A stretch of 64,000 nucleotides of DNA, taken from Tepidimonas thermarum. GTDB taxonomy: Bacteria > Pseudomonadota > Gammaproteobacteria > Burkholderiales > Burkholderiaceae_C. The notes beneath the pieces were generated by a model. That model was given only the letters and a program-made list of their open reading frames with translations, made no database searches and was not told the DNA's origin. The DNA lies in NCBI RefSeq assembly GCF_007556705.1, contig NZ_VJOL01000006.1, forward strand, positions 1 through 64,000, in the 5' to 3' direction. This document shows, in pieces, positions 3,665-36,712 of this stretch. Position 1 is the first letter of the stretch. Every line of letters starts with the position of its first letter. The translations under genes were made by a program, and so were the position numbers.

Positions 3665-5048
3665 ATGCGCAGAATCCACGATTGGCCCCTGGCCACCAAG
3701 CTCTGGGTCGGGGTGGCGGTGCTGCTGCTGACGCTGGCCACGGTGGTGGCTGCGGTGATCGTGCGCTCGGTGCGCTCGACGCACGCGGCCCAGGCGCAGG
3801 TGGCGCAGCAGACCGACCGGGTGTTTGCCGCTGCTCAGTGGGCCGCCTTGAGCGAGGCGCGGCTGCTGGCCGAGGTCGGGGCCGCCACCGCGCGTGATCC
3901 GGTGGCCCTGGAACTGCAGCGCGCCACGGCGCGGCAGGCACATGCGCAGGCCGCGCAGTGGCAGCAGCGCGTCCAGGCACTGGCCGAAGGGACGCCGCAC
4001 CGCCCCGCGGTCGAGCAGATCCTGGCGTTGCAGCAGCAGGCCGATAGCGCGTTGGCGGCGGTGTTGCGGGTGTACCGGGAGGGGCAGGCAGCCGTTGCAG
4101 CGTTCGGTGCAGTGCGCGCACGAAATCGCCCGTGGCGATCTGTCCCATGCCCTGGTGGCCGATCGGCAGGACGAGTTTGGCGCGTTGCTGCGTGCACTGG
4201 AGACGATGCGCGCGCGGCTGGCGCGTGTCGTCAGCGGCGTGCGCGATGGGGCCCAGCGGGGGCACGGCGCCGCGGCCGAGATCGCGGCGGGCAACCAGGA
4301 TTTGTCAGCCCGCACCGAACGCACCGCCACCAGCCTGCAACAGACCGCGGCGCGCATGCAGCAGGCCACCCAGGAGTGGCAGGCGTTGGCTGAAGCCGCG
4401 CAGCAGGCGTTGATGGCAGCCGACCGCGCGGCCGCCTCGGCCGAGCAGGGCGGCCAGCAAGCGCAGCAGGCGGTGCAATCGATTCAGGCGGCGGCGCGCG
4501 CCAGCGAACGCATTGCCGACATCACGGGCATGATCGACAGCCTGGCGTTTCAGACCAACATCCTGGCGCTCAATGCCGCGGTGGAGGCGGCGCGCGCGGG
4601 CGAAGCCGGACGGGGCTTTTCCGTGGTGGCGGGGGAGGTGCGGCAGCTCGCCCAGCGCAGCGCCCAGGCGGCCAGCGAAATCAAGCGCCTCATCGAGGCC
4701 AGCGTGCAGGCGGTCAACCAGGGCACGTCGCAGGTGGGGCTGGCCGGCGAGGTGATCGAGCGTCTGCGCCAGGAGGTGCTGGGCCTGCACGAGGCCATGG
4801 ACCACATGCACGGGGCCAGCCAACGGCAGGCGGCCACGGTGGCGGACATCAACCACACCTTGGCGGCGCTCGACCAGGACACGCAGCACAACGCGGCCCT
4901 GGTGGAGCAGACGGCGGCTGCCGCGGCGGCGCTGTCGCAGGAGGCGGCGCGCCTGGGCGAGGCGGTGCAGGGCTTTGCGCTGTCGGCCGCGGTTGCGCCC
5001 AACGCCTTGGCGCTGGACGGTGCTCAGGCCACCGTTTGGGTCAGGTAA
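3665..5048 (+). pseudogene. Broken methyl-accepting chemotaxis protein gene (frame change plus internal deletion)
   Basis: Frame A, from ATG 3665, encodes a membrane-anchor N-terminus (KLWVGVAVLLLTLATVVAAV) and about 125 residues of a helical periplasmic sensor. Near 4080-4095 the homology moves to another frame. There it resumes directly with a HAMP-like segment ([18 protein letters not shown]), then a full chemoreceptor signalling domain ending at 5048. That domain has its conserved hairpin tip ([19 protein letters not shown]) and flanking heptad repeats. Not only is the frame lost: the last sensor helix and the second membrane segment are absent, so an out-of-frame deletion is the simplest cause. 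The intact family would have sensor, TM2, HAMP and signalling domain in one frame. Its 3' end overlaps the convergent DUF455 gene by 25 bp. Confidence 0.8.
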
Positions 5049-5917
5049 TCGAGCTCGGCAGCGCTAAAACCCGCGCGCAGCCGGGCCTCGGTGTTGAGCG
5101 GGGGCTTGGGGCGGGGCGCACGGTGCAGGCGCACCAATTGGCGAAAGTGCGCCAGGGGCTCCAGCCCCCTTTGGTCGCACAGCCAGTGGTACCAGCGGTT
5201 GCCGATGGCCACGTGGCCCACCTCGTCGCGCAAGATGAGGTCGAGGATCGCGCAGGTCCGCTGGGCCGCGGGCGTGCCGGCGCGGCGCAGCTTGGCCTGA
5301 ATCAGCGGGGTGGCGTCCAGCCCGCGCGCCTCCAGCGTGCGCGGCACGAGCGCCATGCGCGCCACGATGTCGTGGGCCGTGCGGTCGCACATGGTCCACA
5401 GGCCATCGTGCGCCTCGAAGTCGCCATAGTCCCAGCGCTGTCCGTCGGGGCCGTGCAGCGTGCGCAGGTGCTCGCGCAGCAGCGAGAAGTGCAGCGCTTC
5501 CTCCGCCGCCACGCGCAGCCAATCGCGGTAGAAGGCATCGGGCATGCCCGCAAAGCGCCACACGGCATCCAGCGCCAGGTTGATCGCGTTGAACTCGATG
5601 TGGCACAGGGCGTGGACGAGGGCCGCGTGCCCCTCCGGCGTGAAGGGGGAGCGCGCCGGGACCGCGCCGGGTTCGATCAAGACGGGGCGCAATGGCCGCC
5701 CGGGCAGCGGCCGTTGCGGCGGCGGGGTCAAGGCCGCCACCGGATCGACCCAGGGGCGGCCGGCGGCGGCATCCGCCTGCACGCGCTGCCACAGGGCCTG
5801 CACACCGCTGACTTTGGCCTGCGGGTCGGCTTGCGTGAGCCAGTGCAGCGCCTGCGCGCGCGCCTCGGCTGCCCCGGGCAGACCCGCGGGGGGCGGGGTG
5901 GACGTGGTGGGATGCAT
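5024..5917 (-). CDS. DUF455 ferritin-like protein
   Basis: This 297-residue cytosolic protein belongs to the DUF455 group of ferritin-like, four-helix-bundle proteins with a presumed di-metal site. Candidate ligands are the Glu in HIEFNAIN, the Glu and His in [11 protein letters not shown], and the Glu and His in [13 protein letters not shown]. The conserved block ARGLDATP lies between them. The family's reaction is not established to my knowledge; relatives sit near stress and tRNA-modification genes. ATG 5917 was chosen over 5941 because the longer start would run into the neighbouring gene and the family begins close to this position. It is divergent from the gene at 5934 and convergent with the broken chemoreceptor. 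Confidence 0.85.
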
Positions 5918-5930
5918 CCGTACAATTCTA
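5899..5930. promoter_or_regulatory. Overlapping divergent -10 elements between the DUF455 gene and yrdA
   Basis: Plus strand, toward yrdA: TGGACG (5899-5904), 16 bp, TACAAT (5921-5926), then seven bases to the ATG at 5934. Minus strand, toward DUF455: TAGAAT (5930-5925), then seven bases to the ATG at 5917, with a weak TCGAGT near -35. The two -10 hexamers share bases 5925-5926. Polymerase could not occupy both at once, and both mRNAs would be leaderless or nearly so. Inferred. Confidence 0.5.
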
Positions 5931-5933
5931 CGA

Positions 5934-6458
5934 ATGAGCATCTACCAACTCGATGACATCGCCCCCGACGTGCACCCGTCGGTGTTCGTGGCCGACACCG
6001 CCCGGGTGATCGGGCGCGTCGCCCTGGCCGAAGACGCCAGCGTTTGGTTTGGGGCGGTGCTGCGCGGGGACACCGACCCGATCACGGTCGGGCGTGGCAG
6101 CAACATCCAAGACGGCAGCGTGCTGCACGCCGACATTGGCTACCCCTTGACCATTGGCGCGCACGTCACCGTGGGGCACCAGGTGATGCTGCACGGCTGC
6201 ACCATCGGGGATGAGTCGCTGATCGGCATCGGGGCGGTGGTGCTCAACGGCGCGCGCATCGGGCGGCATTGTCTGGTCGGCGCCGGCGCCCTGGTCACCG
6301 AGGGCAAGGCATTTCCGGACGGCTCCATGATCCTGGGCAGCCCGGCCAAGGTGGTGCGCCAGCTCACGCCCGAGCAAATCGAGGGCCTGCGCTGGAGCGC
6401 GCGCCACTACATCGAAAACGCGCGCCGCTTCAAGGCCGGCCTCAAGCGCATCGGCTGA
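5934..6458 (+). CDS. yrdA: Gamma-carbonic anhydrase family hexapeptide-repeat protein (YrdA-like)
   Basis: This 174-residue protein folds as a left-handed beta helix of hexapeptide repeats (for example [14 protein letters not shown]) with a short C-terminal helix, as in gamma-class carbonic anhydrases. The three metal-binding histidines are present, in VLHADIG and in [11 protein letters not shown]. Length is typical of the small cytosolic YrdA group. Members bind zinc, but carbonic anhydrase activity has been weak or absent in several, so the true substrate is open. No Shine-Dalgarno sequence precedes the ATG. hslO follows 10 bp downstream on the same strand and is probably co-transcribed. 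Confidence 0.88.
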
Positions 6459-6468
6459 AGGGGCGGGC

Positions 6469-7452
6469 GTGTCCGAATTGCACAAATTTTTGTTTGACGG
6501 CGTGCCCGTGCGCGGCGCGCTGGTGCGCTTGACCGACGGCTGGCAGGAGCTGCTGCGCCGGCGCGAAAGCGCCGGTGGCTACCCGTCGGCGGTGGTCGAG
6601 CTGCTGGGCGAGATGACGGCGGCTGCGGTGCTGCTGCACAGCAACATCAAGTTTGCCGGGGCGCTGGTGTTGCAGATTTTTGGTGATGGGCCCGTCAAGG
6701 TGGCCGTGGCCGAGGTGCAGCCCGACATGGCGTTTCGTGCCACGGCCAGCGTGCGCGGGGAGGTGGCCACGGGCGTTGCGCTGTCGCATCTGGTCAATGT
6801 GCTGGGACAGGGGCGCTGCGCGATCACCTTGGACCCGCGCGAACGCCAGCCGGGGCAAAAGGCCTACCAGGGCGTGGTGCCGCTGGTGGATGCCCGTGGG
6901 CGGCCGCTGGAAGCGCTCAGCGACGTCATTGGCCACTACATGCGGCAAAGCGAGCAGCTCGACACGCGCTTGGTGCTGGCGGCCAATGCGTCGGTGGCGG
7001 CGGGGCTGTTGATTCAGCGCATGCCCGCGACGGGCGAGGGCAACCTGTCCGGCACGGCGGCAGTCGCCGACGACGCCGATGCGCTGGGTGCCAACGAGGA
7101 CTTTCACCGCATCGCCACGCTGGCGTCCAGCCTGACGCGGCAGGAGCTGCTGACGCTGGACGCCGACACCATCTTGCACCGCCTGTTTTGGCAGGAAGGG
7201 CTGCTGCGGCTGCCGCCGTCCAGCCCGCAGCAGGCGCACCCGCACTTTGCCTGCACCTGCTCGCGCGAGCGCGTGGGCGGCATGCTGCGCGCACTGGGCG
7301 TGGACGAGGTCGAGGCGATCCTGGCCGAACAAGGCGATATCGACGTGGCATGCGATTTCTGCGGCCAGCACTACCGCTTCGATGCGGTGGACGCGGCCCA
7401 GCTGTTCTTGGCACAAGACCAGCAGCCGCCCACGTCGCCGCGCATGCAGTAA
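6469..7452 (+). CDS. hslO: Redox-regulated chaperone Hsp33
   Basis: Hsp33 is a cytosolic holdase that becomes active when oxidants, often with heat, expel zinc from its C-terminal switch. The 327-residue protein has the usual Hsp33 N-terminal domain and the redox centre with Cys262-x-Cys264 and Cys295-x-x-Cys298 intact. The start is GTG at 6469, ten bases after the yrdA stop, with GGGGCGGG as a weak ribosome-binding site. The C-terminal tail (QDQQPPTSPRMQ) is short and unstructured. It ends facing the ftsB-eno operon, with a 70-bp GC-rich gap that shows no T-tract terminator. Confidence 0.94.
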   Translation: MSELHKFLFDGVPVRGALVRLTDGWQELLRRRESAGGYPSAVVELLGEMTAAAVLLHSNIKFAGALVLQIFGDGPVKVAVAEVQPDMAFRATASVRGEVATGVALSHLVNVLGQGRCAITLDPRERQPGQKAYQGVVPLVDARGRPLEALSDVIGHYMRQSEQLDTRLVLAANASVAAGLLIQRMPATGEGNLSGTAAVADDADALGANEDFHRIATLASSLTRQELLTLDADTILHRLFWQEGLLRLPPSSPQQAHPHFACTCSRERVGGMLRALGVDEVEAILAEQGDIDVACDFCGQHYRFDAVDAAQLFLAQDQQPPTSPRMQ

Positions 7453-7522
7453 GGCCGCGCGGCGCGCGGTGCACGGCGGCGTGTTCGGCCACAACGTGCG
7501 GCCGCCGGCTGGTGCCCCGCCG

Positions 7523-7852
7523 TCACCGGGACGGCTGCTCGCCGGCGCTGCGGACCGCGGGCGACGCAGCGGTGGCCGGCGACTGGATTTGCACGAAGAT
7601 TTCGTTGGGCTTGACCATGCCCAATTCCTGGCGGGCGATTTCTTCGACGGTTTCGACCCCTTCGCGCAGGTCCCGCACCTCGGCGGCCAAGCGCTCGTTG
7701 CGCAGCCGCGCGGCCTCGTTGGCCTGTTCCTGGGCGGCGAGTTCGCGCCGCAGGGCCTCGACCTGCGACACGTTGCCCCAGCCCCACCAGAGTTGCGCGT
7801 GGACCACGGCCAGCAGCACCAGCAGCACGGCCGTGACCCAGCGCCCGCCCAT
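7523..7852 (-). CDS. ftsB: Cell division protein FtsB
   Basis: FtsB is a bitopic inner-membrane protein that forms a trimer with FtsL and FtsQ in the divisome and helps activate septal peptidoglycan synthesis. The 109-residue product has one N-terminal membrane segment (VTAVLLVLLAVVHAQLWWG), a periplasmic leucine-zipper-like coiled coil of about 50 residues, and the conserved block ARQELGMVKPNEIF. The tail is variable and Ala/Ser/Pro-rich. It lies 9 bp after eno in the same operon, a pairing common in beta- and gammaproteobacteria. Confidence 0.93.
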   Translation of the reverse strand: MGGRWVTAVLLVLLAVVHAQLWWGWGNVSQVEALRRELAAQEQANEAARLRNERLAAEVRDLREGVETVEEIARQELGMVKPNEIFVQIQSPATAASPAVRSAGEQPSR

Positions 7853-7861
7853 GGTGGGTCC

Positions 7862-9202
<1,341 letters not shown>

Positions 9203-34941: not shown

Positions 34942-36625
<1,684 letters not shown>

Positions 36626-36712
36626 GGTGCGCCGATTGTAGGCGCTGCGTTTCCGACGCCGGCCGCGACCGGCATCGGGTGGGCGTGGGGCGGTGGCGCG
36701 CGCGCCGGTGCG

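Follow-up and report, generated by a model that had tools for sequence, protein, structure and literature searches.

The genes for a DUF455 protein and a gamma-carbonic-anhydrase-like protein diverge from a 16-bp gap (5918-5933) in Tepidimonas thermarum, within the 64,000-nucleotide stretch of DNA that we analyzed and refer to as the window. How can so short a gap hold the promoters and translation starts of both genes? Bacterial bidirectional promoters have been recognized only recently, and the locus touches the question of how many of them are selected and how many are accidental. An earlier note on this DNA had pointed to a plus-strand TACAAT and a minus-strand TAGAAT that overlap by two bases within the gap, each lying seven bases from the ATG of its gene. 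Direct reading of the sequence agrees on both points (Table 1): the two opposed hexamers share bases 5925-5926, the hexamer-to-ATG distance is 7 nt on both sides, and the segment CAT-CCG-TACAATTCTA-CGA-ATG matches its own reverse complement at 18 of 22 bases.

Table 1. Features of the DUF455/yrdA locus, in window coordinates
Feature	Position	Strand	Basis
-10 hexamer TACAAT, yrdA	5921-5926	+	Direct sequence reading
-10 hexamer TAGAAT, DUF455 gene	5930-5925	-	Direct sequence reading
Near-palindromic dyad TACAATTCTA, proposed bidirectional promoter core	5921-5930	both	Conservation and register counts
Weak -35-like TGGACG, within DUF455 coding sequence	5899-5904	+	Promoter scan
yrdA-type gamma-carbonic-anhydrase-like gene	5934-6458	+	ATG 5934-5936, 7 nt past -10
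DUF455 gene	5024-5917	-	ATG 5917-5915, 7 nt past -10
Hsp33-family (hslO) gene, downstream of yrdA	6469-7452	+	Pfam match above, NCBIfam match below its cut-off

Profile searches identified the left gene product as DUF455 (PF04305, 296 bits) and the right gene product as a hexapeptide protein (PF00132). The top NCBIfam match of the right gene is to gamma carbonic anhydrase (NF050158), with a score of 183 bits that falls short of the curated threshold of 250; we presumptively call this gene yrdA, a name that comes from the earlier note and that the family searches do not supply. A promoter scan of positions 4000-8000 listed a single sigma-70-type consensus site, TGGACG-16-TACAAT at 5899-5926 (one found versus 0.1 expected). 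For the minus hexamer TAGAAT, the same scan returned no -35 good enough for listing, and no conserved -35 was apparent in column counts of the aligned dyad loci described below. The predicted -35 elements at this gap are weak.

We collected yrdA relatives by protein search, and the best 80 of 579, largely from Comamonadaceae, gave 81 loci together with the window. The yrdA protein matches begin at residue 1 in all of these 80 relatives, and DUF455 lies upstream on the opposite strand in 76 of them, at a distance of 1265 bp in L052. Of the 80 relatives, 67 have the dyad, TANAATTNTA, no more than 250 bp before yrdA, which makes 68 of 81 loci with the window included; these 68, drawn from the best 80 of 579 relatives plus the window, are referred to as the dyad loci throughout. 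Eight dyad positions are fixed by the search pattern, so that their agreement in 68/68 loci holds by construction and was not used; the free third bases, the flanks and the distances are what count. At its free third base the plus hexamer has C in 67 of the 68 dyad loci, and the minus hexamer reads TAGAAT in 48 and TACAAT in 20. Perfect symmetry is broken in 47 dyad loci, always at the pattern-free third hexamer base, and in most dyad loci CATCC lies near the left end of the dyad and GG to its right. Conservation is not universal. The Polaromonas pair appears to use separate promoters, and the shared dyad would thus be dispensable. Among the 17 best-matching yrdA loci from other families of the order, taken as outgroups and searched for DUF455 by tblastn, three (L247, L248 and L254) have a divergent DUF455 and none (0/17) has the dyad within about 250 bp before yrdA, which suggests that the gene order may predate the dyad.

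The arrangement was also examined in loci picked by gene order rather than by motif. Our family sample comprised 150 genomes, the window's own included, mostly from different genera, and counts over it ignore shared descent. DUF455 is present in 134 of these genomes, and in 95 gaps DUF455 and yrdA are divergent, adjacent and less than 350 bp apart (50, including the window, have the strict dyad and 45 lack it). Left out of the register test were the remaining 39 DUF455 loci: in 35 the stretch retrieved holds no yrdA, and in 4 the genes diverge but stand apart. We counted every register of two opposed hexamers in the 200 bp preceding yrdA. The register in which the hexamers share AT was found in 66 of the 95 gaps in relaxed form and 47 in strict form (kinship ignored), compared to 3.65 and 0, respectively, in mononucleotide shuffles; dinucleotide shuffles gave 3.45 and 0.05. 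The runner-up register reached 5 relaxed and 1 strict. The proposal in the earlier note that overlapping divergent -10 hexamers are the promoters of both genes is supported by the register in these 66 gaps. No relaxed pair was present in the 200 bp scanned in 29 gaps; three of these carry a strict dyad 215-359 bp before yrdA, and 26 have neither a relaxed pair in the 200 bp nor a strict dyad farther out. In its strict form the register occurs in 50 of the 95 gaps, under 46 genus labels. On these counts the dyad at the DUF455/yrdA gap is not a product of chance, and its symmetry together with its conservation are, as judged from the sequence comparisons, the strongest points of the case. A strict register in 50/95 gaps between two coding genes suggests that bidirectional promoters can be maintained by selection.

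We consider it likely that the dyad is a conserved bidirectional sigma-70-type promoter, with opposed -10 hexamers that share their last two bases and with leaderless starts in both directions. From the sequence, position and conservation of the dyad we infer that a sigma-70-type RNA polymerase would engage this one symmetric element in either orientation. Facing right, the polymerase would open TACAAT and produce the yrdA mRNA; facing left, it would open TAGAAT and produce the DUF455 mRNA. Both RNAs would begin at or within one base of their ATG, placing the predicted starts 15-17 bp apart, and would be translated as leaderless messages. The geometry of the hexamers implies that binding is mutually exclusive, as two complexes could not coexist on them.

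A near-perfect palindrome, extended in most dyad loci by CC..GG flanks, might instead be the operator of a dimeric regulator of both genes, its likeness to -10 hexamers being secondary. Consistent with an operator, the dyad is retained in two lineages in which DUF455 was not found: the comparison sets two loci that have lost the minus half (L016 and L026) against three loci of two lineages that have kept it (the sisters L032 and L051, and L094), with L151, probably the same contig as L051, uncounted. A regulator with a regulon, however, should have further sites. In the 2.7-Mb genome, TASAATTSTA is present at a single position, in the DUF455/yrdA gap. Starting from the pattern, we found 74 TASAATTSTA sites in 66 of the 150 family genomes, 52 of them upstream of yrdA, 50 with a divergent DUF455 and 2 where DUF455 was not found. 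The 50 consist of 46 identified by script, L090, L093 and L110, in which the protein match overran the site, and the window. The remaining 22 sites lie elsewhere and are at chance level, since the reversed pattern gave 28 sites in the same 150 genomes; this argues against an operator with a regulon and would leave a regulator with a single target. Moreover, the third hexamer base breaks the symmetry in the 47 dyad loci noted above, and in 56 of the 68 the DUF455 ATG is locked at 7 nt (52 loci) or 6 nt (4 loci) from its hexamer, as would suit a -10 element but not an operator. With sites elsewhere at chance level, we rejected the operator as the main reading, and we regard it as unlikely.

The locked spacing makes DUF455 look leaderless in 56 of the 68 dyad loci. 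The DUF455 frame is also open from an ATG farther upstream, at 5941 in the window, and 45 of the 56 loci have such a further in-frame start before a stop. AGGG stands immediately before the ATG in many DUF455 loci, too close for the usual Shine-Dalgarno role. The other 12 dyad loci comprise seven of Limnohabitans type, three that lack a suitable start 5-9 nt from the hexamer (L073, L084 and L088) and two (L032 and L051) in which DUF455 was not found. In the Limnohabitans type an ATG is kept at 7 nt but is out of frame, and DUF455 starts at 45 nt. All seven (L059, L060, L063, L071, L075, L077 and L087) keep GGGATG or GAGATG at that distance from the hexamer; the out-of-frame ATG may open a very short upstream frame or belong to a discriminator signal.

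On the yrdA side, the ATG is exactly 7 nt from the hexamer in 12 of the 68 dyad loci and 26-129 nt away in 56, with none between, and 52 of the 56 long-leader loci have a Shine-Dalgarno-like motif. Across the 95 gaps the strict hexamer nearest to the yrdA ATG is 5-7 nt away in 11, 8-21 nt in none and at least 22 nt in 74, and it is absent in 10. A fixed spacing for DUF455 beside a variable distance for yrdA could mean that the dyad serves DUF455 only and that yrdA is transcribed from elsewhere, for example from inside DUF455. Such an arrangement sits poorly with the two discrete classes of yrdA distance, the longer of them mostly furnished with a Shine-Dalgarno-like motif, and with the retention of TACAAT before yrdA in loci that have lost the minus half (L016, L024, L026, L033 and L045); in addition, no other consensus site was listed in the scan of 4000-8000. 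We consider it very unlikely. That the overlap is a functionless by-product of a short gap is scarcely credible: short gaps do push promoters together and a 10-mer is short, but one register dominates the 95 gaps and the overlap persists in the 56 dyad loci that have 26-129 nt between dyad and yrdA. The dyad stays where yrdA has a leader with a Shine-Dalgarno-like motif, which suggests that the register of the proposed bidirectional promoter is kept for transcription and not by the shortness of the gap.

The earlier note had further held that both transcripts are leaderless or nearly so. For the window this stands, with 7 nt on both sides, the dyad at the position of the ribosome site and no Shine-Dalgarno-like motif. 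It does not extend to most relatives: yrdA looks leaderless in only 12/68 dyad loci (best 80 of 579 relatives plus the window) and, given its distance of 26-129 nt in the other 56, the double-leaderless state is a minority form. A scan from -18 to -5 detected a Shine-Dalgarno-like motif at 0/12 close yrdA starts and 0/56 close DUF455 starts, zero counts that are largely built in because the dyad (-13 to -4) fills most of the stretch scanned. In a tree of the 81 yrdA genes, leaderless yrdA falls in four groups within a weakly supported part, a pattern compatible with a single origin or with several. The yrdA of L015, labelled as a Chitinophaga pinensis metagenome-assembled genome, clusters in this tree with Malikia granosa (100/99 support), and the bin is probably mislabelled. 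If both sides are leaderless, as predicted in the window, 16 bp would serve as two promoters and take the place of two ribosome sites, and the gap would be a very compact natural system in which to study how polymerase chooses its orientation and how leaderless messages are translated.

Bidirectional promoters with symmetric -10 elements have been described in bacteria by Warman, Grainger and colleagues (Warman et al. 2021, as presented in PMC10268837, PMC12825309 and PMC11661796), with divergent starts 7-25 bp apart and overlapping key -10 and start positions (PMC10268837). As in those promoters, the opposed -10 elements at the DUF455/yrdA gap reciprocally overlap in one short pseudo-symmetric sequence, polymerase would bind one way at a time, here as judged from geometry, and the start spacing predicted from the hexamer positions lies inside the 7-25 bp definition. 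The commonest start spacing is 18 bp, with 10 and 23 bp also common (PMC12825309), and at 18 bp positions -7 and -11 coincide (PMC10268837). In contrast to this typical but not required register, -7 coincides at our locus with -8, through the shared AT. The locus also differs from those promoters in that both flanking genes are predicted to be leaderless and the element recurs across a family. Taken on its sequence, the DUF455/yrdA element is real and conserved; its probable kind, the bidirectional promoter, is known, with the difference that the hexamers here share their last two bases. The earlier note had expected the two genes to compete for polymerase. Competition at the dyad is possible but would not be expected by default, because five E. 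coli bidirectional promoters showed none at basal activity and competed only once one side was substantially activated (PMC12825309). Our expectation is that the two genes are expressed together from a compact element, at low basal rates, and do not compete in a regulatory way.

Leaderless genes have been detected, by prediction, in 9 of 71 beta-proteobacterial genomes (Zheng et al. 2011, PMC3160421). Leaderless mRNAs have been measured in Burkholderia cenocepacia (PMC4603805) and, in Cupriavidus metallidurans, at 4.67% of primary starts (PMC7563307). The DUF455/yrdA locus resembles the leaderless genes of Zheng et al. in that a -10-like hexamer, rather than a Shine-Dalgarno sequence, lies a short way upstream of the start codon, and at 7 nt on both sides the position of each -10 would put the start at the ATG. 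It differs from them in that two genes predicted to be leaderless diverge from a single dyad, an arrangement for which narrow literature searches returned no description. Leaderless starts look common in the T. thermarum genome as a whole. TACAATN{5,12}ATG has 32 matches, versus 0 for the reversed pattern; TACAATN{0,28}ATG has 67 versus 5 reversed, with 28 of the 67 at 6-9 nt; and TAGAATN{0,28}ATG has 23 versus 4. In the window, the minus strand of 36619-36640 has TACAAT with one ATG 9 nt and another 13 nt after it, a further candidate leaderless start.

The same genome contains, outside the window, a comparable gap in which the palindrome ATTCTAGAAT lies between divergent ispD and mfd (G000:C53:78480-78513, L264; names from family searches, mfd from a partial protein) and the ATGs are 8 and 10 nt from overlapping hexamers. 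These hexamers share their first two bases (TA), whereas those of DUF455/yrdA share their last two. Within the family sample, ATTSTASAATN{5,10}ATG occurs in 50/150 genomes and the reversed pattern gives 4 matches. When one locus was taken from each of 30 of the 50 genomes, 14/30 were at ispD/mfd, and 11/30 had a possible start with a frame of more than 60 amino acids within 18 bp on both sides. Shared-dyad divergent promoters thus seem, from these pattern counts, to recur in this beta-proteobacterial group. A bolder reading, possible but offered tentatively, is that the single 10-bp dyad is both promoters and the substitute for both ribosome sites, and that selection has preserved it as one unit. 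On this reading, DUF455 and the gamma-carbonic-anhydrase-like protein would be made in a stable ratio set by the direction in which polymerase binds, and ispD/mfd would follow the same logic with the hexamers overlapping the other way round.

Two other sites in this genome, both outside the window, have hexamers facing one another. At G000:C47:23230-23264 (L266), two inward-facing TAGAAT hexamers between an ORF that we presume from its first residues, by eye, to be ftsY-like and a divergent ORF form a third compact opposed-hexamer arrangement. At G000:C1:2934-2972 (L265), TACAAT occurs on each strand within an inverted repeat, the two copies facing each other over about 16 bp, and the arrangement could be either opposed hexamers or a stem-loop.
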